NCBI GenBank assembly: GCA_000720535.1
Contig: JOAZ01000019.1
Location: 62,001-126,000, forward strand
Length of the DNA: 64,000 nt
Direction: 5' to 3'
Source of the DNA: Streptomyces halstedii
Lineage (GTDB): Bacteria > Actinomycetota > Actinomycetes > Streptomycetales > Streptomycetaceae
Both the position numbers and the translations under genes were made by a program. Numbering within the stretch: the first letter of the stretch is position 1; the number at the start of each line of letters is the position of its first letter. Positions 52,014-60,911 of the stretch are shown here, piece after piece. The notes under the pieces are model-generated. The model was given only the letters and a program-made list of their open reading frames with translations. It had not been told where the DNA came from and ran no database searches.

Positions 52014-52847
52014 GTGCTCGTGGCAGACGATTCGAGAAACAGACAGCAAGGCAACATCGGGTCGTACGCGGCGATAGGCGACAGCTTCACCGAGGGGGTC
52101 GGCGACCCTGGCCCCGACGGGACGTTCGTCGGCTGGGCGGACCGTTTCGCGGTCCTCCTCGCGGACCAGCTCCCCGACTCCGACGGAGCGACGGGCCCGG
52201 CGGGCGAAGCGCACGGGCATTTCCGGTACGCCAATCTCGCCGTACGCGGACGCCTCCTCGACCAGATCGTCGAGGAGCAGGTCCCCCGCGCCAAGGAGCT
52301 GGCACCGGATCTGGTGAGCTTCTGCGCGGGCGGCAACGACATCATCCGGCCCGGAACCGACCCCGACGACGTGGCCGAACGCTTCGAACGGGCGGTCGCG
52401 GACCTGGCGGGCTCGGTCGGCACGGTCATGGTCACCACCGGCTTCGACACCCGGGGTGTCCCGGTCCTCCGGCACCTGCGCGGCAAGATCGCCACGTACA
52501 CCGCCCATGTCCGGGCCATCGCCGACCGCTACGACTGCCCGGTGCTGGACCTGTGGTCCCTGCGCTCCGTGCAGGACCGGCGTGCCTGGGACGGCGACCG
52601 GCTGCACCTCTCGCCCGAGGGGCACACCCGGGTGGCGCTGCGGGCCGCGCAGGTCCTCGGTATCGAGGTGCCGGCCGATCCCGACCAGGCCTGGCCGCCG
52701 CGGGCACAGCGTGGAGCGCTGGAAGAGCGGCGCGACGACATCCACTGGGCGCGCGAATACCTCGTGCCGTGGATCGGCCGGAGGCTGCGCGGAGAGTCCT
52801 CCGGGGACCATGTCGAGGCCAAGCGGCCTGACCTGCTGCCCCTTTGA
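52014..52847 (+). CDS. SGNH/GDSL-family hydrolase (lipase/esterase)
   Basis: A 277-residue cytoplasmic esterase/lipase-like enzyme without a signal peptide. The four SGNH blocks are IGDSFTEG (Ser nucleophile), NLAVRG (Gly), CAGGNDI (Asn) and DRLHLSPEGH (Asp and His). GTG 52014 is preceded by AAAGG at 9 bp; GTG 52020 is an alternative. It converges on the STM4011 gene with only 4 bp between stop codons, embedded in the palindrome TGAGGCCTCA. Confidence 0.92.
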   Translation: MLVADDSRNRQQGNIGSYAAIGDSFTEGVGDPGPDGTFVGWADRFAVLLADQLPDSDGATGPAGEAHGHFRYANLAVRGRLLDQIVEEQVPRAKELAPDLVSFCAGGNDIIRPGTDPDDVAERFERAVADLAGSVGTVMVTTGFDTRGVPVLRHLRGKIATYTAHVRAIADRYDCPVLDLWSLRSVQDRRAWDGDRLHLSPEGHTRVALRAAQVLGIEVPADPDQAWPPRAQRGALEERRDDIHWAREYLVPWIGRRLRGESSGDHVEAKRPDLLPL

Positions 52848-52851
52848 GGCC

Positions 52852-53919
52852 TCAGCCGGTGACGAGGGGGAGCGGCCGCCGGTGATGCGCCCGGCCGTCC
52901 GGCCCGTCCGGCGTGGGTGCCCACACCGGACGGGCGGGTATGCGCTCCAGCACCCCTCCGGCGAAGACGTCGTACAACGGCAGGGACTCCAGGTGCACAT
53001 AGCCGATGTGGCAGTCGCACACCGCGAGCGGGCAGCCGCGCGGGCCCAGTGAGCTCCGGTAGCCGCCGTCGTAGAGATTGCCGAGCTCGGTCCGGACGAA
53101 GTGGCAGCGGCGCACCGTGCCGTCACCGTCGACCGAGATCACCGACTCACCGGTCCGGCACGGCAGTCCCGCCGAGGTGTGCGGATGCCTGCTGTAGGGG
53201 AACAGCGGGTCCAGCGCGGTCCAGCGGTCCGCCTCCGCGTCCGTGTAGGTATGGCCCTCGGCCGCGTTGACCCAGAGGTACACCTCGGGCGGCAGCGCGG
53301 CCCGGAGCCGCCGGGCCTCCTCCAGGTGGCCCTCCAGGCCCACCACCCCGACGCTGAACCGCACCCCCAGGTCCGACAGTTCCCGGCACCGGCCCAGGAA
53401 CCGCTCGTACGGGGTCTGGCCCGGGTGGTACGTGCACCACAGGGCGACCTTGTCCCGGTCGGCGTCGGCCAGCCAGCCGGTGCGGCAGCTCAGGTTGGTC
53501 TGGATGGCGACCCGGCGGATGTGCGGCAGCCGCGACAGCTCGACCAGCGCCCGCCGGTACCAGGACCGTACGAGACCCTCGCCCCACGGGGTGAACAGCA
53601 CCGAGAGCCGGTCGCCGGTCTGCGCGCCGGCCCAGCCGGTGAAGCGCTCCAGGGCGGCGCGGTCCGCCCGCAGTTGCTCACCGCTGTCCCGGCGCTTGGC
53701 GAACGGGCAGTACGGGCAGTCGTAGTCGCAGGACGCCAGCGGACCGCGGTACAGGACGGTCAGGTCGATGCCGTCGGCGGCGCCGGAGACGGTCGGGCCG
53801 GGGCTGGGGCCGGAGACCGTCGGGCTGGGGCTGGGGCTGGGGCTGGGGCCGGGTCCGGTGGCCGGCGGGCCGGCTTCCGGGCCGGTGGTGGGCGGGTCGG
53901 TGCTCATCCGGGTGCTCAC
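52852..53919 (-). CDS. STM4011-family radical SAM protein
   Basis: A 355-residue radical SAM enzyme. The N-terminal 45 residues are a Pro/Ser/Gly-rich linker encoded by hexanucleotide repeats. The [4Fe-4S] motif is C64-x3-C68-x2-C71 (ASCDYDCPYCPFAKR). Further Cys residues in the C-terminal part (VRRCHF; GPRGCPLAVCDCHIGY) suggest an auxiliary cluster as in SPASM/twitch proteins. GTG 53919 overlaps the upstream stop (GTGA). It is the last gene of the STM4015-STM4011 operon; the substrate is unknown. The family name comes from Salmonella, remembered from NCBI family models. Confidence 0.9.
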   Translation of the reverse strand: MSTRMSTDPPTTGPEAGPPATGPGPSPSPSPSPTVSGPSPGPTVSGAADGIDLTVLYRGPLASCDYDCPYCPFAKRRDSGEQLRADRAALERFTGWAGAQTGDRLSVLFTPWGEGLVRSWYRRALVELSRLPHIRRVAIQTNLSCRTGWLADADRDKVALWCTYHPGQTPYERFLGRCRELSDLGVRFSVGVVGLEGHLEEARRLRAALPPEVYLWVNAAEGHTYTDAEADRWTALDPLFPYSRHPHTSAGLPCRTGESVISVDGDGTVRRCHFVRTELGNLYDGGYRSSLGPRGCPLAVCDCHIGYVHLESLPLYDVFAGGVLERIPARPVWAPTPDGPDGRAHHRRPLPLVTG

Positions 53920-55262
53920 TTCGCCTCGTACGCGGACATCGCGGCCCGTACCGCGGGGGAGAACAGCTCCGGGCCCAGCGCGTCGGAGTGCGCCAGACCT
54001 TCGGGTGACAGCCGCAGCCCGCCGGGTGCCGCGGACCCGTCCAGCCAGCCGCGCGCCGCGAAGCGCTCCAGCTCGGCGGGGAAGTCGGCGTGCGGATCCG
54101 TGCCGAACCGCTCGCGGTACCCGGCCCGGTCCATCCCCTCGGCCTGGAGCAGCGACTGCAACAGGTGGCGCCTGCGCGCCTCGTCACCGGTGACGTATCT
54201 GCCGACCTCCGCCCGGGAGAAGTCCCCGGTGGCGGTGAAGTCGTCGATGATGCCCCGGATCCCCCGCATCTCCACCGCGTAGTCGAAGGAGTAGTGCAGC
54301 GAGGAGGTGTACGAACGCGCGCCGCAGCCGAGCCCGATCATGCCGTCGGTCTGGCAGGCGTAGTCGTCGGGGCCGGCCTGCGGGGCGTCCTTGAGGCGGA
54401 ACATGCGCATCGACACCTGTTCGTAGCCGTGGGCGAGCAGATGGTCGCGCCCTGCCCGGTACAACCGCAGCCGCTGCTCGTCCCAGGCCCTGTCCGGGGC
54501 GTCCGCGTCGGTCCGGTGCCGGCCCAGACCCGTCAACGGGCGTACGTAGAGGGGGTAGAGGTAGAGCTCCTCCGGGCGCCAGGCCAGGGCGGCGTCCAGC
54601 GAGAAGCGCCAGCTCTCCTCCGTCTGCCCGTCGATGCCGTAGATCAGGTCGATGTTGAGGACGGGGACACGGGCGTCGCGGATCCGGCCCAGCGCCGCCT
54701 CCACCTCCGAACGGTGCTGCGGACGGACGGCCGCCCGCGCCTCGGCGTCCACGAAGCTCTGGACACCGATGCTGACCCGGGTCGTGCCCCGGTCGGCGAG
54801 CACCGCGAGCCGGTCCGCCGTGGCGGTCGACGGGGAGGTCTCCACCGACAGCGGCACCGACCGCAGATCGGCGCCCATCCGCCTCTCCGCGATGTCGCAG
54901 AGCCGCTCCAGCTCACCCGCCGTCAGGAAGGTGGGTGTGCCGCCACCGAACGCGGCGGCCGCGAAACGCACCGGGTCCGCGTCGCCCAGCGCGTCCCGGA
55001 CGGCCGTGGCCTGCCGGTCCAGGGCGTCGAGGTAGCGGGTGGTCAGCTCGTCCGGTGCGCCGATCCTGGTGAACAGGTTGCAGAAGCCGCAGCGGACCTC
55101 GCAGAACGGTATGTGCAGGTAGAGGGAGAGCGCGTCCTTGGGCTCGGACGCCCACAGCTCGCTCAGGAGCGGGCGCCCGGCGGGGTGCCCGGCGAGCGGG
55201 CGGTAGGCCGTCTTGTGCGGATAGGCGTAGACGTAACCGCGGTACGGGGTGGTGCTGGTCAT
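53916..55262 (-). CDS. STM4012-family radical SAM protein (HemN-like)
   Basis: A 448-residue protein resembling coproporphyrinogen-III dehydrogenase/HemW. LYLHIPFCEVRCGFCNLF carries C54-x3-C58-x2-C61. AFGGGTPTFLTAGELERL, TRVSIGVQSF and LIYGIDGQTEESWRFSLD are HemN-type SAM-binding blocks, and the C-terminal part has a HemN-like winged-helix region. It is not a heme gene by context: no other heme genes are near, and it is coupled (ATGA) between STM4013 and STM4011. ATG 55262 follows GGGGG. The reaction is unknown. Confidence 0.9.
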   Translation of the reverse strand: MTSTTPYRGYVYAYPHKTAYRPLAGHPAGRPLLSELWASEPKDALSLYLHIPFCEVRCGFCNLFTRIGAPDELTTRYLDALDRQATAVRDALGDADPVRFAAAAFGGGTPTFLTAGELERLCDIAERRMGADLRSVPLSVETSPSTATADRLAVLADRGTTRVSIGVQSFVDAEARAAVRPQHRSEVEAALGRIRDARVPVLNIDLIYGIDGQTEESWRFSLDAALAWRPEELYLYPLYVRPLTGLGRHRTDADAPDRAWDEQRLRLYRAGRDHLLAHGYEQVSMRMFRLKDAPQAGPDDYACQTDGMIGLGCGARSYTSSLHYSFDYAVEMRGIRGIIDDFTATGDFSRAEVGRYVTGDEARRRHLLQSLLQAEGMDRAGYRERFGTDPHADFPAELERFAARGWLDGSAAPGGLRLSPEGLAHSDALGPELFSPAVRAAMSAYEAK

Positions 55263-56128
55263 CGAGATGCCCCCGGGTCGAGGAAGAAGTGTGCGTACGG
55301 CACGGTCCAGACGGCCTCGTGCCCCAGCCGGTGACCGGTGTAGCCGCCGTCCCCGTACGCCGTGCCGTGGTCGGAGCAGACGATCGCGAAACACCGGCGG
55401 CGGCTGCTCACCGCGGCGAAGAGGCGTCCGATGTGCCGGTCCACGTACTCCAGGGCGGCGGCGTGCGTCGCCCTGGAGTCGCCCGCCTCGGCGGTGGCGC
55501 CGGGCAGATGGAACCAGTTGGGCTGATGCAGGGCCGACACGTTGACGAAGAGGAACAGCCGCCGCTCCGGTGGCAGGGCGGCCACCACCCGCTCGGCGCA
55601 CGCCACCTGGGCCTCGAAGGAGGTGGGGGAGGCGACGCCGAACTCCGGCTCCCAGTGACTCTCCTGGAACAGGCCCGGCAGCACCGAGCCGAGCGGGGGA
55701 CGGCGGTTGAAGAAGCCGACCCCGCCGATGCACACCGTGTGGTAGCCGGCGCCGACGAGACCCGAGGGCAGATCGGGGGTCTCGTGGACGAAGGTGCCGT
55801 CCGCCGTGGACTCGCTGCCCGCGAAGCGCGCCGCGAACAGGCGCGGATGCGGACCGGGAGAGGCCGGCGTGGGCAGGAATCCGGCGAACATCGCCTGGTG
55901 CGAGGCGTAGGTGAAGCTGCCCGGAGCGTGCCTCTTCTCCCAGACGCCACCAGGGAGGTGACGGGCCAGGTGGGGGATGCGGCCGGCGGCGGCGAGCTCC
56001 TCGGCCACATCGAAACGCAGGGTGTCCAAGGTGACGAACAGCAGGTCGTGGCTGCCCACCACCGCGTTCATATCGGGGTTCGGGGCGTCCTGGACGCGGG
56101 TGACGGGGTCAGGGGGCTGAGGCGGCAC
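55259..56128 (-). CDS. STM4013-family sulfatase-like hydrolase
   Basis: A 289-residue protein of the alkaline-phosphatase/sulfatase superfamily. LLFVTLDTLRFDVA gives the first metal-binding Asp pair. APGSFTYASHQAMFAGFLP corresponds to the nucleophile region, with Thr/Ser rather than the sulfatase Cys. SDHGTAYGDGGYTGHRLGHE supplies the second Asp-His metal site. A phospho- or sulfo-ester or phosphonate is the likely substrate class. GTG 56128 follows GAGGAA and overlaps the STM4014 end by 20 bp; ATG 56071 is an alternative. It is coupled to STM4012. Confidence 0.85.
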   Translation of the reverse strand: MPPQPPDPVTRVQDAPNPDMNAVVGSHDLLFVTLDTLRFDVAEELAAAGRIPHLARHLPGGVWEKRHAPGSFTYASHQAMFAGFLPTPASPGPHPRLFAARFAGSESTADGTFVHETPDLPSGLVGAGYHTVCIGGVGFFNRRPPLGSVLPGLFQESHWEPEFGVASPTSFEAQVACAERVVAALPPERRLFLFVNVSALHQPNWFHLPGATAEAGDSRATHAAALEYVDRHIGRLFAAVSSRRRCFAIVCSDHGTAYGDGGYTGHRLGHEAVWTVPYAHFFLDPGASR

Positions 56129-57302
56129 GGTCGTTCCTCGCTCGGTCGTTCGTCGGCTGTTCCTCGGGGCGGCGCTCTTCCCCGGCGGCCCGCAGGACCG
56201 CGGCGACCTGCGCCGCGTAGGTGTCCAGGCCTTCCGCACCACTGCCCGGCAGGCCGGTCAGACGGGGCAGCAGATCCCCGAAGGCGTTGACCTCACCCAC
56301 GGCGAAGCGTCGCCAGCCGGTCGCCGGAAGCAGGTCGACCCCCACACACAGGGTGTCCGGGAAGCACGCGGCGGCCCGCTCGCACACCGCGAGGGCTTCG
56401 GCCCAGCCGCCGCCCGCGTCCTCGACGGCCGCCCGCACCTCGTCGAGATCGCCGCGCGCCCCGCCCAGGTGCAGATTGGTCATGGGGGAGCGGCTGGTCC
56501 GTACGACGGCGTGGGTCGCCCGGCCCGCGACCACCACCACCCGGAGGTCGGCGACCCGGCCGCCGCGCACCGAGGCCTTCGGCAGCCAGCGCTCGACATG
56601 CAGCCCGTCCGGAGCGAGGGCGTCGACGACCGCCGCCACCTCGCTCTCCGTCGTGCACCGGCGCACCCGGAGCGAGTTGAAGAGGCGGCCCGCCTCGTCC
56701 CGCTCCACGGACGTCGTGGCGCGCACCCGGCCGGGGCCCGCCGTCTCCACGGCCAGCACCCCGGAGGCGGAGGAGCCGTGGGCGAGCTTCACGAACACCC
56801 GCGGCATCCGGTGGTCCGTCATCAGCCGGCGTACGTCCGCCCAGTCCCGCACCGGTGGCGCCGCCTGACCCGAGGTGGGCGACTCCGGCACGGGCACCCC
56901 GGCGGCGTCCATGACACCGTGGCAGAGGCGCTTGTCGAAGAGCACCGCGATGTCGTCCGGGTCGTCCAGCAGAACGGCCCCGGCCGAGGCGGCCGTCCGG
57001 GCCACGTCCCGCACCGCGGAGGTGAAGCGGGTGTACCAGAGGGCCGAACCCTCCACCCTGGTCGGGTCGTCCACCCCGCGCAGCAGCCGTTCGACCTCGG
57101 TGTCCTCGCCGGGCGAGTCGATACGGACCCGCTCGCCCGGAAGGAAGGCGGCCTCACCCCGTACCACCTGCCGCCAGGACACGGTGCGCGCCTCGGGCAG
57201 CCCGGCGGCCCGCACCGCGTCCTGGAAGAGGCCGACCCTGCGGTTGCCGGGATTCCCGACGACCGCGAGGCGCGGCAGCGCGCTATTCGCTGACAACGAC
57301 AT
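56109..57302 (-). CDS. STM4014-family ATP-grasp protein
   Basis: A 397-residue ATP-grasp enzyme related to RimK-type ligases. RVFVKLAHGSSASGV supplies the ATP-binding Lys, DLRVVVVAGRATHAVVRTS and TNLHLGG the central sheet, and GVDLLPATGWRRFAVGEVNAFGDL the metal-binding Asp/Glu/Asn. Such enzymes join a carboxylate to an amine or hydroxyl via acyl phosphate, including modification of ribosomally made peptides. ATG 57302 overlaps the STM4015 end by 20 bp. With two radical SAM proteins and a hydrolase, it points to a modification pathway. Confidence 0.87.
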   Translation of the reverse strand: MSLSANSALPRLAVVGNPGNRRVGLFQDAVRAAGLPEARTVSWRQVVRGEAAFLPGERVRIDSPGEDTEVERLLRGVDDPTRVEGSALWYTRFTSAVRDVARTAASAGAVLLDDPDDIAVLFDKRLCHGVMDAAGVPVPESPTSGQAAPPVRDWADVRRLMTDHRMPRVFVKLAHGSSASGVLAVETAGPGRVRATTSVERDEAGRLFNSLRVRRCTTESEVAAVVDALAPDGLHVERWLPKASVRGGRVADLRVVVVAGRATHAVVRTSRSPMTNLHLGGARGDLDEVRAAVEDAGGGWAEALAVCERAAACFPDTLCVGVDLLPATGWRRFAVGEVNAFGDLLPRLTGLPGSGAEGLDTYAAQVAAVLRAAGEERRPEEQPTNDRARNDRAASAP

Positions 57303-58311
57303 AACGGAACTCGTCGTCCTCGGGATCCGAGTCGTCCGCCTCGTCGAGATCGACGTGGACGTCCGCCCCGGCACACAGGTCGCGGAAGCGCGACACCAGC
57401 GGCTCGGTGAGGTAGTGGTGGTGCAGGTCCAACGAGACGAGATGGGTGAGCGGCTGGCCGTCCAGGAGGGCACGGGCGCCCGTGTCACCGAGCGTCCCCA
57501 TGGACAGGGCGAGCGATTCCAGCCGGGCGACGACGGGGGCGGAGGCGACCGCCGCCGCGATCTCGTCCTGGATCTCGCTGTTGCACAGGCCCAGATGGCG
57601 CAGGCTCGGGAGGGCGGCGCCCGACAGGAGGGGGCGTATGTCCTCGACCGTGGTGTCGCCGCCGTACCCCTGGGTGCCGAGCCACAGCTCCAGCCGCTCC
57701 AGAGCGGGCAGGTCGGACGCGCCCAGCGCGCGGACGACATGGCCGGGCAGCCCGCCGGACTCGAAGCGCAGCGACTTCAGCGCCCGGTGGTTCACGGGAT
57801 TCAGTCGCAGCTCCTCGTCGTCCGACATGGAGTCACCCCCGCCCCGCACGACCAGCTCCTCCAGCAGGGGGAAGGCCTCGAACACCGGGGTGATGTCGCA
57901 CAGCTGGATCCACGAGACCTCGCATTCCTCACCGGTCACATCGGCGAGGAACAGGCCGCGCAGCTCCGGGAGAAGGCCCGCGTCGGAGGCGATCAGCCTC
58001 AGAGCGGGTCCGAGGGAGACGTAGTCCTCGTGCCACCAGGGGCCGATCAGCAGGGCACGGACCCGGCGCGTGTCGACCGTGCCGAGGAAGTGCCGCCAGA
58101 GCGCGGGGAATCCGCCGTCCTCGGGCGGATATTCCAGCCGCCAGGCGACGGAACCGGGCTCGGGAAGCGTGGGCGCCGGCAGGGTGTCCGGCTCCGGGAG
58201 GGTGAACACCGGCAGGCCGTGGAAGACCTCGGGATGGTCGATGTCGAGATGCTCGACGATCATGTGCTCGACGTCCTCGCGCTCGTCGTTCGTGGGTCCC
58301 GTCCGCGTCAT
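57283..58311 (-). CDS. STM4015-family leucine-rich-repeat protein, copy A
   Basis: A 342-residue protein: acidic N-terminus, then leucine-rich repeats through about residue 300 (LPALERLELWLG, LPSLRHLGLCNSE, LTHLVSLDLHHHYLTEP), then an acidic tail ending EFRYVVVSE. It shares many blocks with copy B next to it, including SGGLP-x2-VVR, ERLELWLG and GQPLTHL-x2-LDLHHH-x-LTEP. LRR proteins usually bind partners, so it may be a scaffold or the substrate of the operon enzymes. ATG 58311 is 7 bp after the copy B stop; ATG 58263 is an alternative. Confidence 0.85.
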   Translation of the reverse strand: MTRTGPTNDEREDVEHMIVEHLDIDHPEVFHGLPVFTLPEPDTLPAPTLPEPGSVAWRLEYPPEDGGFPALWRHFLGTVDTRRVRALLIGPWWHEDYVSLGPALRLIASDAGLLPELRGLFLADVTGEECEVSWIQLCDITPVFEAFPLLEELVVRGGGDSMSDDEELRLNPVNHRALKSLRFESGGLPGHVVRALGASDLPALERLELWLGTQGYGGDTTVEDIRPLLSGAALPSLRHLGLCNSEIQDEIAAAVASAPVVARLESLALSMGTLGDTGARALLDGQPLTHLVSLDLHHHYLTEPLVSRFRDLCAGADVHVDLDEADDSDPEDDEFRYVVVSE

Positions 58312-58318
58312 CGCCGCA

Positions 58319-59275
58319 TCACTCCGCGACCGTGGTGTAGCGGCCCGCGGCGCCCCGGCCGTCCCAGGGCTCACAGCGCTCGGAGAGGTCGATCCGCACG
58401 CCGTGCGGCTCCAGGGCCTCGACGACCCGGCGCTCCATCGGCTCGGTCAGGAAGTGGTGGTGCAGGTCCAGCGCCGTCAGGTGGGTGAGCGGCTGGCCTT
58501 CGAGCAGCGCGGCCGCCCCCTCGTCACCGAGTGTGCCGGAGGAGAGGTCGAGCGTCCGGAGCCGGGCGACGACCGGGGCCGAGGCGATCGCGGTCGCGAT
58601 CTCGTTCTCCAACTCGCTGTTGCGCAGGCCGAGATGGTGGAGCCGGGGGAAGCGGGTGCCGGAGAGCAGCGGCGCGAGGTGGCGCAGGGACGCGTCGCCT
58701 CCGTACGCGGACACCCCGAGCCAGAGTTCGAGCCGCTCCAGCGCGGGCAGCTCGCTGTCCAGCACCCCGCGCACCACCTCCGCCGGCAGGCCGCCGCTCT
58801 CGATCGTCAGCGCCCGCAGGGACGCGTGCCGGACCGGCGGGAACACCAGGCCGCTGCCGCCACGGACACCGAGCTCGGTCAGGGCGGGGTAGGCGGTGAG
58901 GAGAGCGGTGACGTCCGACTGCTCGATCCAGGAGATCTCGGCCTCCTCCATCTCCAGGTCCCCGACGAAGACCGCCTCCAGCGAGGTGAAGCGGTCGGCG
59001 GCGGCCACGACGAGGCCGATGGGATGCGAGGAGTCCTTCTCGTACGCCTCACCCCACTGCCCGATGATCAGCGCCCGCACCCCGGCGGGGTCGACGGCTT
59101 CGAGGAACGCGTCGAACTGCTGCTCCCAGGCGTCGTCCCTCTCGTCGTCGTAGGGATCGACCCGGAGGCGCCAGGCCGCGTCCCCCGCCTCCGGCCGTAC
59201 GGTCCCACCGGTCTCAAGCTGGAAATCCACGGCCGGGAGGCCGAGCAACTCGTGCAGATGTTCCACACCGGGCAT
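58319..59275 (-). CDS. STM4015-family leucine-rich-repeat protein, copy B
   Basis: A 318-residue paralogue of copy A, with the same repeat order (LPALERLELWLGVSAYGGD, FPRLHHLGLRNSE, LRTLDLSSGTLGDEGA, LTHLTALDLHHHFLTEP) and a C-terminus ending GRYTTVAE, matching copy A at R-Y-x2-V-x-E. ATG 59275 lies 10 bp after AGGAG. It is first in the operon, about 40 bp downstream of a DNA-damage-type promoter. Confidence 0.87.
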   Translation of the reverse strand: MPGVEHLHELLGLPAVDFQLETGGTVRPEAGDAAWRLRVDPYDDERDDAWEQQFDAFLEAVDPAGVRALIIGQWGEAYEKDSSHPIGLVVAAADRFTSLEAVFVGDLEMEEAEISWIEQSDVTALLTAYPALTELGVRGGSGLVFPPVRHASLRALTIESGGLPAEVVRGVLDSELPALERLELWLGVSAYGGDASLRHLAPLLSGTRFPRLHHLGLRNSELENEIATAIASAPVVARLRTLDLSSGTLGDEGAAALLEGQPLTHLTALDLHHHFLTEPMERRVVEALEPHGVRIDLSERCEPWDGRGAAGRYTTVAE

Positions 59276-59483: not shown

Positions 59484-59810
59484 GTGTACCGGCAGGGTGA
59501 CGTGCTGATCATGGCTCTGGAGGAGTCGGCGGTGCCGGCCCAGTTCCTCAAGGCGCCGGGCGAACTGCGGGACGGGCGGGGGCAGCTGGTGCTCGCACTG
59601 GGCGAGGTCACCGGGCACGCGCACGCGGTGCGGGGGCCGGGCAGGCTCCTGCGGGAGGCCGGTCCTTTCGGGCCGATGCTGCTCCATCTCCCCGAGGGCG
59701 GCCGGGTGGTGCACGAGGAGCACGCCCCCATACCCCTGCCCAAGGGGTGGTTCAGGGTGGTGCGGCAGCGGGAGTACGCGCCGGGTGCCGTCCGCATCGT
59801 CGCCGACTGA
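59484..59810 (+). CDS. Conserved small protein upstream of DUF6745 gene, function unknown
   Basis: A 108-residue soluble, beta-rich-looking protein. Conspicuous blocks are the N-terminal YRQGDVLIMALEE, LALGEVTGHAHAVRGPGR and the C-terminal HEEHAPIPLPKGWFRVVRQREY. The three His in GHAHAV and HEEHAP could bind a metal. I recall similar small proteins next to LRR or DUF6745 genes in other bacteria but no function. GTG 59484 follows GGAGGGGAG. It is followed 99 bp later by the DUF6745 gene and is expressed from a damage-type promoter. Confidence 0.8.
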   Translation: MYRQGDVLIMALEESAVPAQFLKAPGELRDGRGQLVLALGEVTGHAHAVRGPGRLLREAGPFGPMLLHLPEGGRVVHEEHAPIPLPKGWFRVVRQREYAPGAVRIVAD

Positions 59811-59909
59811 CGGGGCGGGCGGTGCGGCGGCGACGGGACGGGACGGCACGGGTGACGTGCCGTGGGTGATGTGCGGTCAGCGCAGACGGATTGGGGACGG
59901 GGAACACCG

Positions 59910-60911
59910 ATGCAGTACGTGAACGACTGGCGGGCCGTGGCGGCGGCGACGGGCGGGGCAGACCGGGGAACCGCGGAGGACGGGGTGCGGCTCGCCTACC
60001 GCCGCGCCGGACTCGCGGAACCGGAGCGGATCATCTGGGTGGACTCACCCCGGGCGGCCGTCGAGGCGGTGGAGAAGCTGACCGACGCCGGACGCTCCGT
60101 GCGCGAGGAGGTGCGCACCCGGCCGTGGGCCGAGGAGCGCCGCCGGATGTACGACGAGCTGGGACCGGCCGGCTGGTCGGCCCTGTGGTCCGCCACCGGG
60201 GCCCAGTTGTGGGAGACCACGGCCGCCCTGGCCGAGCGGATACGGGCAGGTGTGGTCGCGGACCTCGCGGACGTGCCCGAGGACGAGTCCGACGTGCGGC
60301 TCGTTCTGCTCGACGCGGTCCTCGGCCAGCACGACGCGGCCTGGCTCGCCGCCTTCGACGGCCGCGGCGACCGGCTGAACGGCCTGGCGGAGGTCGCCAG
60401 GAACGCCGGCTGGTGGTGGCCCTACGAGCGGGCCGTGGTGATCAGCGAACGGCCGGTCGCCCTCCACCGCGACGAGGCGGGACGGCTCGACCGGGGCGAC
60501 GGGCCCGCGCTCGCCTACCGCGACGGCTTCGCGCTGCACGCCTGGCGGGGCATGCCCGTACCGGCCGAATTCCTCGACGGACTCGCGGATCTGACGCCCG
60601 AGCGGATACGCGCCGAGGAGAACGCCGAGCTGCGCCGCGTGATGCTGGAGTACTACGGCTACGACCGCTACCTGGCCGAATCGGACGCCGAGCCGGTGCA
60701 CCGGGACGAGACCGGCGTCCTCTGGCGGATCGCGCTGGAGGGCGACGAGGACGTCGTCATGGTCGAGGTCGTCAACTCGACGCCGGAGCCGGACGGCACC
60801 CACCGCACGTACTGGCTGCGGGTGCCGCCCAGCACGAGGACGGCGAAGGACGGCGTCGCCTGGACGTTCGGGGTCGAGGGAGAGGCCTACGCCCCGCTGC
60901 GCCAGACCTGA
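59910..60911 (+). CDS. DUF6745-family protein
   Basis: A 333-residue protein. The C-terminal half shows the DUF6745 hallmark as I remember it: ISERPVALHRDEAGRLDRGDGPALAYRDGFALHAWRGMPVPAEF in adjoining blocks, then LTPERIRAEENAELRRVMLEYYGYDRYL. The N-terminal half is helical and Glu/Arg-rich. Biochemical role unknown; the HRDEAGRLxR-x-DGPA unit looks like a repeat-type beta hairpin. ATG 59910 follows GGGGACGGGGAAC. It probably shares a transcript with the 108-residue protein and is linked by its promoter to the STM4015 operon. Confidence 0.82.
   Translation: MQYVNDWRAVAAATGGADRGTAEDGVRLAYRRAGLAEPERIIWVDSPRAAVEAVEKLTDAGRSVREEVRTRPWAEERRRMYDELGPAGWSALWSATGAQLWETTAALAERIRAGVVADLADVPEDESDVRLVLLDAVLGQHDAAWLAAFDGRGDRLNGLAEVARNAGWWWPYERAVVISERPVALHRDEAGRLDRGDGPALAYRDGFALHAWRGMPVPAEFLDGLADLTPERIRAEENAELRRVMLEYYGYDRYLAESDAEPVHRDETGVLWRIALEGDEDVVMVEVVNSTPEPDGTHRTYWLRVPPSTRTAKDGVAWTFGVEGEAYAPLRQT

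Follow-up and report, generated by a model that had tools for sequence, protein, structure and literature searches.

Five protein families, STM4011 to STM4015, are widespread yet carry only locus names. A full set is encoded in the stretch of Streptomyces halstedii DNA analysed here, 64,000 nucleotides of contig JOAZ01000019.1 (the window), where six minus-strand genes at 52852–59275 are transcribed in the order STM4015 copy a, STM4015 copy b, STM4014, STM4013, STM4012 and STM4011. STM4015 members are leucine-rich repeat (LRR) proteins and look like substrates or carriers acted on at a C-terminal glutamate (Glu); the conserved terminal-Glu tail is a new finding of this work. In the reading proposed, this Glu would be loaded by the ATP-grasp protein STM4014, and the load or the tail would be modified by STM4013, a phosphatase-superfamily enzyme, and by two radical S-adenosylmethionine (SAM) enzymes, STM4012 and STM4011. 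The reading as a whole is given a rough probability of 0.55. An earlier note, made from the sequence alone, had suggested a modification pathway in which the LRR protein is a 'scaffold or substrate'; that suggestion fits, is borne out in part, and is sharpened here to a substrate at its C-terminal Glu. If the reading is true, the principle of the LysW and RimK systems reaches large binding proteins, with radical chemistry added, and the tail provides a sequence tag for spotting targets anywhere in a genome.

The C-terminus of STM4015 follows the consensus [Y/F]-x-[A/S]-V-[S/A/T/G]-Glu-COOH. Among 260 unique open reading frames (ORFs), Glu is the final residue in 247, and the exact Glu end is found in 232 of the 236 that share a fetched stretch with STM4014. 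This count leaves aside 12 STM4015 ORFs below 200 bits (eight Glu-tailed, four not) and two that are open-ended; in a separate set of 153 ORFs taken without the score floor, 147 end in Glu. Anchored at the C-terminus, the entropy is 0.42 bits at position −1, 0.78 at −3 and 0.93 at −6, and stands at 2.6–3.6 bits upstream of the tail, from −8 to −25. Val occupies −3 in 231 sequences and Tyr or Phe occupies −6 in 248; position −2 holds Ser or Thr in 151, Ala in 61 and Gly in 33. Glu is also last in 24 of 25 representatives picked from the alignment at less than 50% identity. For comparison, the commonest last residue accounts for 15 of 78 ORFs in STM4011, 17 of 84 in STM4013 and 26 of 87 in STM4014; the end of STM4012 is more conserved, with Arg last in 52 of 80. 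The stretch before the STM4015 tail is mostly acidic and variable. In the 232 of 247 Glu-ended ORFs with a simple LRR-end motif, the 12 residues preceding the tail are net negative in 88%, and the distance from that motif to the tail varies also (median 33, s.d. 4.1 residues).

Conservation is not confined to the tail and includes the LRR body, which has about 290 residues. An AlphaFold2 model of copy a (19 alignment rows) reaches a predicted local distance difference test (pLDDT) score of 91.3, and the closest solved structure is 2ra8 (template modelling score 0.79 by query length, 32% identity). This uncharacterised Bacteroides fragilis protein is a member of the STM4015 family, and together with the model it supports the leucine-rich repeats that the earlier note had recognised in two proteins. 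The 2ra8 chain has 362 residues and the family match stops at residue 354, in ..YPMITE; the eight residues beyond the native Glu are presumably a tag.

A second line of evidence comes from the enzyme. The AlphaFold2 model of STM4014 (24 rows, pLDDT 90.5) supports the ATP-grasp fold that had been read from the sequence. Invariant in 29 aligned rows (window numbering) are D123-K124, K172, E237, D252, R254, R268, T275-N276, D323 and N339. A search of Protein Data Bank (PDB) sequences with the STM4014 profile gave 32 weak matches, led by LysX (E 0.0005), RimK (0.002) and cyanophycin synthetase (0.006) in that order; in the HMMER alignment with LysX, the D-x-R, R and T-N residues of the two proteins coincide. 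Foldseek places LysX, ArgX with LysW, LysX/ArgX with LysW-gamma-AAA, PsnB, DcsG and RimK at the top. When entries drawn from 1000 Foldseek hits are ranked by VIA-align Z, where differences below 1 are ties, the first nine are all ArgX, LysX or RimK (22.7–24.4): ArgX has 24.4, LysX 23.7, RimK 23.1–23.6 and a second ArgX 22.7, followed by DcsG (22.1) and glutathione synthetase (21.7). LysX couples alpha-aminoadipate to the C-terminal Glu with which the EDWGE tail of LysW ends (PMC10433800), and S6 receives Glu residues from RimK (PMC4431377). A near-invariant C-terminal Glu on the substrate side and a fold nearest to that of C-terminal-Glu ligases on the enzyme side are thus two independent lines for the loading step, and on these lines loading of STM4015 by STM4014 is considered probable.

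The proposed mechanism uses the last six residues of STM4015 as the handle for the operon enzymes. (i) With ATP, STM4014 would activate the terminal-Glu carboxylate and join it to an amino compound, a step that is supported rather than proven. (ii) STM4012, STM4011 and STM4013 may then transform the tethered group, the tail or both. (iii) The product would either be released or remain on the C-terminus, arming the LRR protein as a prosthetic group. Since none of the five families is a peptidase and none was recognised in the recurrent neighbours, judged by eye from one example per cluster, we lean towards a lasting modification. A single modification machine would be shared by several LRR proteins per genome, including unlinked ones. 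More tentatively, the operon might represent a new class of protein maturation, in which a group ligated to the genetically encoded C-terminal Glu is made a permanent prosthetic group by radical SAM chemistry, one enzyme set arming a family of LRR binders across many bacterial phyla; we regard this wider idea as possible and would not yet lean on it.

Substrate and enzymes travel together. The STM4014 profile and pattern scan of 84,980 species genomes led to 354 relatives confirmed by tblastn, and the 80 top-ranking loci were retained; seven of 13 plasmid matches were added, giving 87 loci. Seventy-six of these, with 1.2 kb or more before STM4014 and 5 kb or more after it, are usable for a neighbourhood count. 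All five families are present in 72 of the 76. This survey had been set beforehand as the test on which the earlier proposal could fail, and it finds the families together. The same holds for a sample of 150 genomes from the genus of the window, where STM4014 exceeds the cut-off in 68, STM4015 in 71 and both in 67; the sole genome with STM4014 and no STM4015 over cut-off (G213) has a decayed copy. The four exceptions among the 76 loci are a Bacteroides plasmid (L027) with fragmented STM4012 and STM4013, two loci with STM4015 and STM4014 only (L033 and L056), and one locus without STM4015 (L071). The two-gene loci keep the Glu tail, and STM4011 was not found in either genome record. Carriers belong to Actinomycetota, Chloroflexota, Planctomycetota and Bacteroidota, and further to Deinococcota, Pseudomonadota, Bacillota and Capsulimonas/Abditibacterium. 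Apart from L071, the 76 loci have one to five STM4015 copies each, and L203 has seven. In Escherichia coli, a match spanning STM4015 to STM4013 occurs in 154 of 5426 complete genomes.

Some loci are split or decayed. In L219 (G373:C6), STM4015, STM4013, STM4012 and STM4011 lie together and the STM4014 of that genome is on a different contig. Decay is seen in L182, L193 and L227: the genes of G213 are fragmented, G287 retains part of STM4011 along with DUF6745, and one E. coli strain has an STM4015 gene with an annotated frameshift.

STM4015 copies without STM4014 bear on whether the tail follows the system. They were sought among 71 STM4015-positive genomes of the genus sample and 50 from a sample of 110 genomes of the family of an Actinomadura genome; from that family, 20 stretches were chosen (odd-tailed, unlinked and some ordinary) rather than all copies. 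In four sampled genomes STM4015 is full-length and no STM4014 exceeds its cut-off, and none of these four orphans keeps the Glu end: the tails are ..SISVGPLTY (G173), ..RYVSIAV (G214), ..RSICVEGLP (G241) and ..YFPAIID (G367, where the STM4015 profile match is shortened). By comparison, 15 of 20 STM4015 copies that lack STM4014 in their fetched stretch and come from system-positive genomes keep Glu. In a tree of 102 LRR bodies, the Glu-less state requires seven changes, scattered among Glu-bearing clades. A class-wide sample of 325 genomes, which partly overlaps the genomes of the Actinomadura family sample, includes 52 with STM4015, five of them tested earlier; STM4014 is present in 46 of the other 47, all but G552. 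Five further candidates were set aside: in G552 the match stops 79 bases before the contig end, G175 has a partial STM4014 (141 bits, under the cut-off), and the STM4015 matches of G285, G197 and G368 are weak.

A number of observations weigh against the proposed reading. The orphan comparison (0/4 versus 15/20) gives a one-sided p of about 0.012, calculated by hand and uncorrected for relatedness; the four orphans represent three independent events in the tree, and two of the three orphan clades also hold copies from system-positive genomes, so the orphan tails count as supporting evidence only. Glu is also missing from five unlinked copies whose genomes do have the system (L168, L169, L181, L204 and L210). 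STM4011 has no match in three of the orphan genomes, and what is left of it in G241 is a fragment of 54 bits that contains a stop; tail loss is therefore not attributable to STM4014 over another enzyme. On the enzyme side, STM4014 is only 13–22% identical to LysX, ArgX and RimK, a common fold is by itself no demonstration of function, and DcsG, at a Z of 22.1, cannot be ranked apart from the lower-scoring entries among the first nine. The last 18 residues of the STM4015 model have a pLDDT of about 76; the tail is not clearly disordered, and its disorder is not demonstrated by the model. The two-gene loci come from metagenome-assembled genomes (MAGs) and are possibly incomplete; in two more such MAGs (L034, L067), STM4011 lies on another contig. 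Finally, four linked copies lack terminal Glu, namely one MAG ORF (L067) and three Herpetosiphon paralogues (L036, L046, L049), with SE followed by YLQD in L049. Each of the three Herpetosiphon loci has four linked STM4015 genes, the first altered or extended (..ISGYLA, ..VSEYLQD) and the other three Glu-ended.

The alternative that survives best takes the tail as a recognition or docking tag only, by which the LRR proteins are brought to the enzymes or the enzymes to them, the true substrate being a small molecule or another protein. Conservation does exceed the Glu, extending to the Val at −3 (231/260) and the aromatic residue at −6 (248/260), and LRR folds usually bind proteins. A docking tag would, however, not require an exact C-terminus with a free carboxylate, which 232 of 236 linked copies have, and the STM4014 fold is nearest to ligases that work on exactly such a carboxylate. 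We consider a docking role alone unlikely.

The two radical SAM families each retain the CxxxCxxC motif that the earlier note had seen in two proteins: it is invariant in all 79 kept rows of STM4011 and all 81 of STM4012. Rows were kept above floors of 150 bits for STM4011–STM4014, 200 for STM4015 and 80 for the DUF6745/small-protein pair described below. The C-terminal half of STM4011 has five more conserved cysteines, C209, C227, C251, C256 and C258 (C-x17-C and C-x4-C-x-C). A full SPASM set comprises more cysteines than five, and the auxiliary set of STM4011 appears twitch/SPASM-like. The only PDB sequence match of STM4011 at E ≤ 0.1 is the C-terminal part of SkfB (6efn; profile residues 195–264, E 0.0027), a peptide maturation radical SAM protein. 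This match, the twitch/SPASM-like cysteines, the aromatic residue at −6 (248/260) and the rank of the graspetide ligase PsnB, fifth by Foldseek E-value, would suit a pathway of the graspetide kind, producing a ribosomally synthesized and post-translationally modified peptide. STM4014 would then form an intramolecular ester or amide through the Glu side chain, the radical SAM enzymes would crosslink Tyr or Phe, and the tail would be released from the LRR body, an oversized leader. Graspetide precursors are short and pair Glu or Asp with Ser, Thr or Lys partners. Here no conserved nucleophile stands beside the Glu (position −2 is Ser or Thr in 151 of 260, otherwise mostly Ala, 61, or Gly, 33), conservation includes the roughly 290-residue LRR body, and no protease was recognised in the recurrent neighbour clusters, which were judged by eye without a profile search. 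Such a pathway is improbable.

STM4012 matches two PDB sequences, HemN (1olt, the best) and the methyltransferase NocN (9p2u), and scores under the family cut-offs for HemN (123.7 versus 324.95 bits), HemW (122.9 versus 205.4) and HutW (143 versus 400). These matches could indicate a tetrapyrrole or small-molecule side pathway, with STM4012 acting on a heme-type substrate as HemN or HemW does, but given the sub-threshold scores, a HemN-like protein (NocN) that, judged by its name, works outside heme synthesis, and an STM4015 tail and LysX/RimK-type ligase left unexplained, this is very improbable.

The third candidate modifying enzyme, STM4013, matches Pfam Sulfatase (E 1.5e-9) and Phosphodiest, in line with the sulfatase/phosphatase fold assigned in the earlier note; the sulfatase part of that label does not hold up as well. 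Sulfatases use a Cys/Ser motif as nucleophile. The formylglycine-sulfatase motif is absent from STM4013, which reads FTYASH with Thr55 in the nucleophile place in all 82 kept rows; because an invariant Thr occupies the usual nucleophile position, the label 'sulfatase' is doubtful. D235, H236 and H248 are each conserved in 81 of the 82 rows (numbering follows the aligned row beginning DMNAVV, one ahead of the Met-start protein). In the Salmonella locus and both E. coli loci examined (L026, L227, L228), STM4011 overlaps at its end with a gene for a Cof-type HAD phosphatase, and a HAD phosphatase is fused to STM4011 in the Bacteroides plasmid (L027, 10373–11935). From these arrangements, a phosphorylated intermediate in the pathway is possible.

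The proposed loading of STM4015 is best placed by comparison with known systems. The operon shares with LysW/LysX the LysX/ArgX-type ATP-grasp fold of the STM4014 model and the C-terminal Glu on the partner, present in 232 of 236 linked copies and in both window copies. The differences are substantial: the tail is YxAVSE-like (RYTTVAE and RYVVVSE in the window) where LysW has EDWGE; LysW is small and zinc-binding, whereas an LRR protein with some 290 residues or more takes its place here; and the ligase is accompanied by radical SAM enzymes and a phosphatase-superfamily enzyme. The operon would work in the manner of LysW/LysX or RimK/S6 but, lacking both an EDWGE tail and a small zinc-binding carrier, is not assigned to the LysW system. 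It differs from RimK/S6 in that the LRR proteins are encoded beside the ligase, together with additional modifying enzymes. Graspetide synthesis by PsnB likewise uses an ATP-grasp enzyme of similar fold on a genetically encoded substrate, but the partner here is an LRR protein of at least 280 residues, with no short precursor and no invariant nucleophile near the Glu. In the pearlin/PEARL carrier-peptide systems, too, the chemistry takes place at the C-terminus of a ribosomally made carrier, and one of the clusters includes a radical SAM enzyme; they differ in their aminoacyl-tRNA-dependent loading and short peptides, against an ATP-grasp enzyme and LRR proteins here (PMC9303977, PMC9016710). 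The locus is a clear member of the STM4011–STM4015 NCBIfam families, which include 2ra8 and are named only, without a function.

The family names are known and the mechanism is apparently undescribed. The earlier note was aware of no function for these families, and this stands: no functional paper on them was found in the open-access literature, a search by which most subscription journals are not covered. A positive-selection survey (PMC2784778) and an RpoN regulon study (PMC3844500) reportedly each mention STM4015 or STM4013 once, and one further paper (PMC11964587) is said to mention PRK08208.

The window has a base composition of about 72% GC. In the STM4015 tree, rows from its genus are interspersed with Streptomyces rows, and its best plasmid matches are likewise from Streptomyces. 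The designation as an STM4011–STM4015 type operon of six minus-strand genes is upheld by a profile search in which all six proteins exceed their NCBIfam cut-offs (table 1). The claim that all genes overlap or lie within 10 bp of each other depends on the gene starts. With the preferred starts, genes overlap at three junctions (4, 4 and 20 bp) and are separated by 37 and 55 bp at the other two, against the claim; the alternative upstream starts 56128 and 58311 turn the two gaps into a 20-bp overlap and a 7-bp gap, respectively, and with these starts it holds.

Table 1. Features of the operon and of the adjacent divergent gene pair (window positions; roles as proposed in the text).
Feature	Positions	Strand	Evidence
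STM4015 copy a, LRR protein, 318 aa	58319..59275	-	NF038076, 392 bits (cut-off 275); tail RYTTVAE-COOH
Copy a heptapeptide codons and stop; proposed target, terminal Glu	58319..58342	-	translation; tail conservation among 260 unique ORFs
STM4015 copy b, LRR protein, 326 aa; start possibly 58311	57283..58263	-	NF038076, 362 bits (cut-off 275); tail RYVVVSE-COOH
Copy b conserved C-terminal heptapeptide codons and stop	57283..57306	-	translation; tail conservation
STM4014, ATP-grasp protein, 397 aa; proposed loader of STM4015 terminal Glu	56109..57302	-	NF038074, 465 bits (cut-off 175)
STM4013, alkaline-phosphatase-superfamily metal hydrolase or transferase	55259..56071	-	NF038075, 420 bits (cut-off 250)
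STM4012, HemN/HemW-like radical SAM enzyme	53916..55262	-	NF006067, 636 bits (cut-off 380)
STM4011, radical SAM enzyme	52852..53919	-	NF038073 rSAM_STM4011, 415 bits (cut-off 200)
Small protein 'MYRQGDVLI', 108 aa; accessory, separable	59484..59810	+	PHROG without known function, E 4.7e-11
DUF6745 protein, 349 aa; accessory, separable	59862..60911	+	PF20530, 393 bits

A divergent gene pair that recurs with the operon lies outside the interval of the earlier note. The DUF6745 protein and the small protein occur together in 41 of 66 loci with room for them, in most cases on the strand opposite the operon. Pfam and NCBIfam give no match for the small protein, in which His motifs (GHxH, HEEH) are conserved; PDB sequence searches reach E 0.22 at best for DUF6745 and 0.34 for the small protein. 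The last residue of each is fixed, Thr in 48 of 49 DUF6745 proteins and Asp in 51 of 52 small proteins. Five same-genus genomes without STM4014 over cut-off (L194–L198) carry a divergent-clade version of the pair, and the last residues are kept there in 5/5 DUF6745 proteins and in all three small proteins found. This serves as a control: the ends of the pair persist without STM4014 over cut-off, and a conserved C-terminus is thus not in itself tied to the presence of the system. The two proteins were accordingly set aside as additional tail substrates.

In the wider surroundings, 761 flanking ORFs were clustered and 14 clusters occur in at least six loci, many of their members coming from Actinomadura-type relatives. 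One example of each was judged by eye, with no profile search, and no protease or peptidase was recognised. An ABC-ATPase-like cluster (nine loci, several phyla) was taken for a large superfamily. A defence function was rejected after comparison of eight proteins with PADLOC, which gave one weak radical SAM match (STM4012, 24.6 bits). The neighbours of unlinked STM4015 genes were compared across 14 loci; among the four loci listed, the sole common ORF, which occurs in L179 and in four more loci, shares its sequence in part with STM4015. The genome of the window has a third, unlinked STM4015 copy (G000:C34:9385-10239, L180), with the Glu-ended tail ..RYIAVAE. At the other end of the operon, a GDSL-type lipase/hydrolase gene at 52014–52847 converges with it, leaving 4 bases between itself and STM4011.

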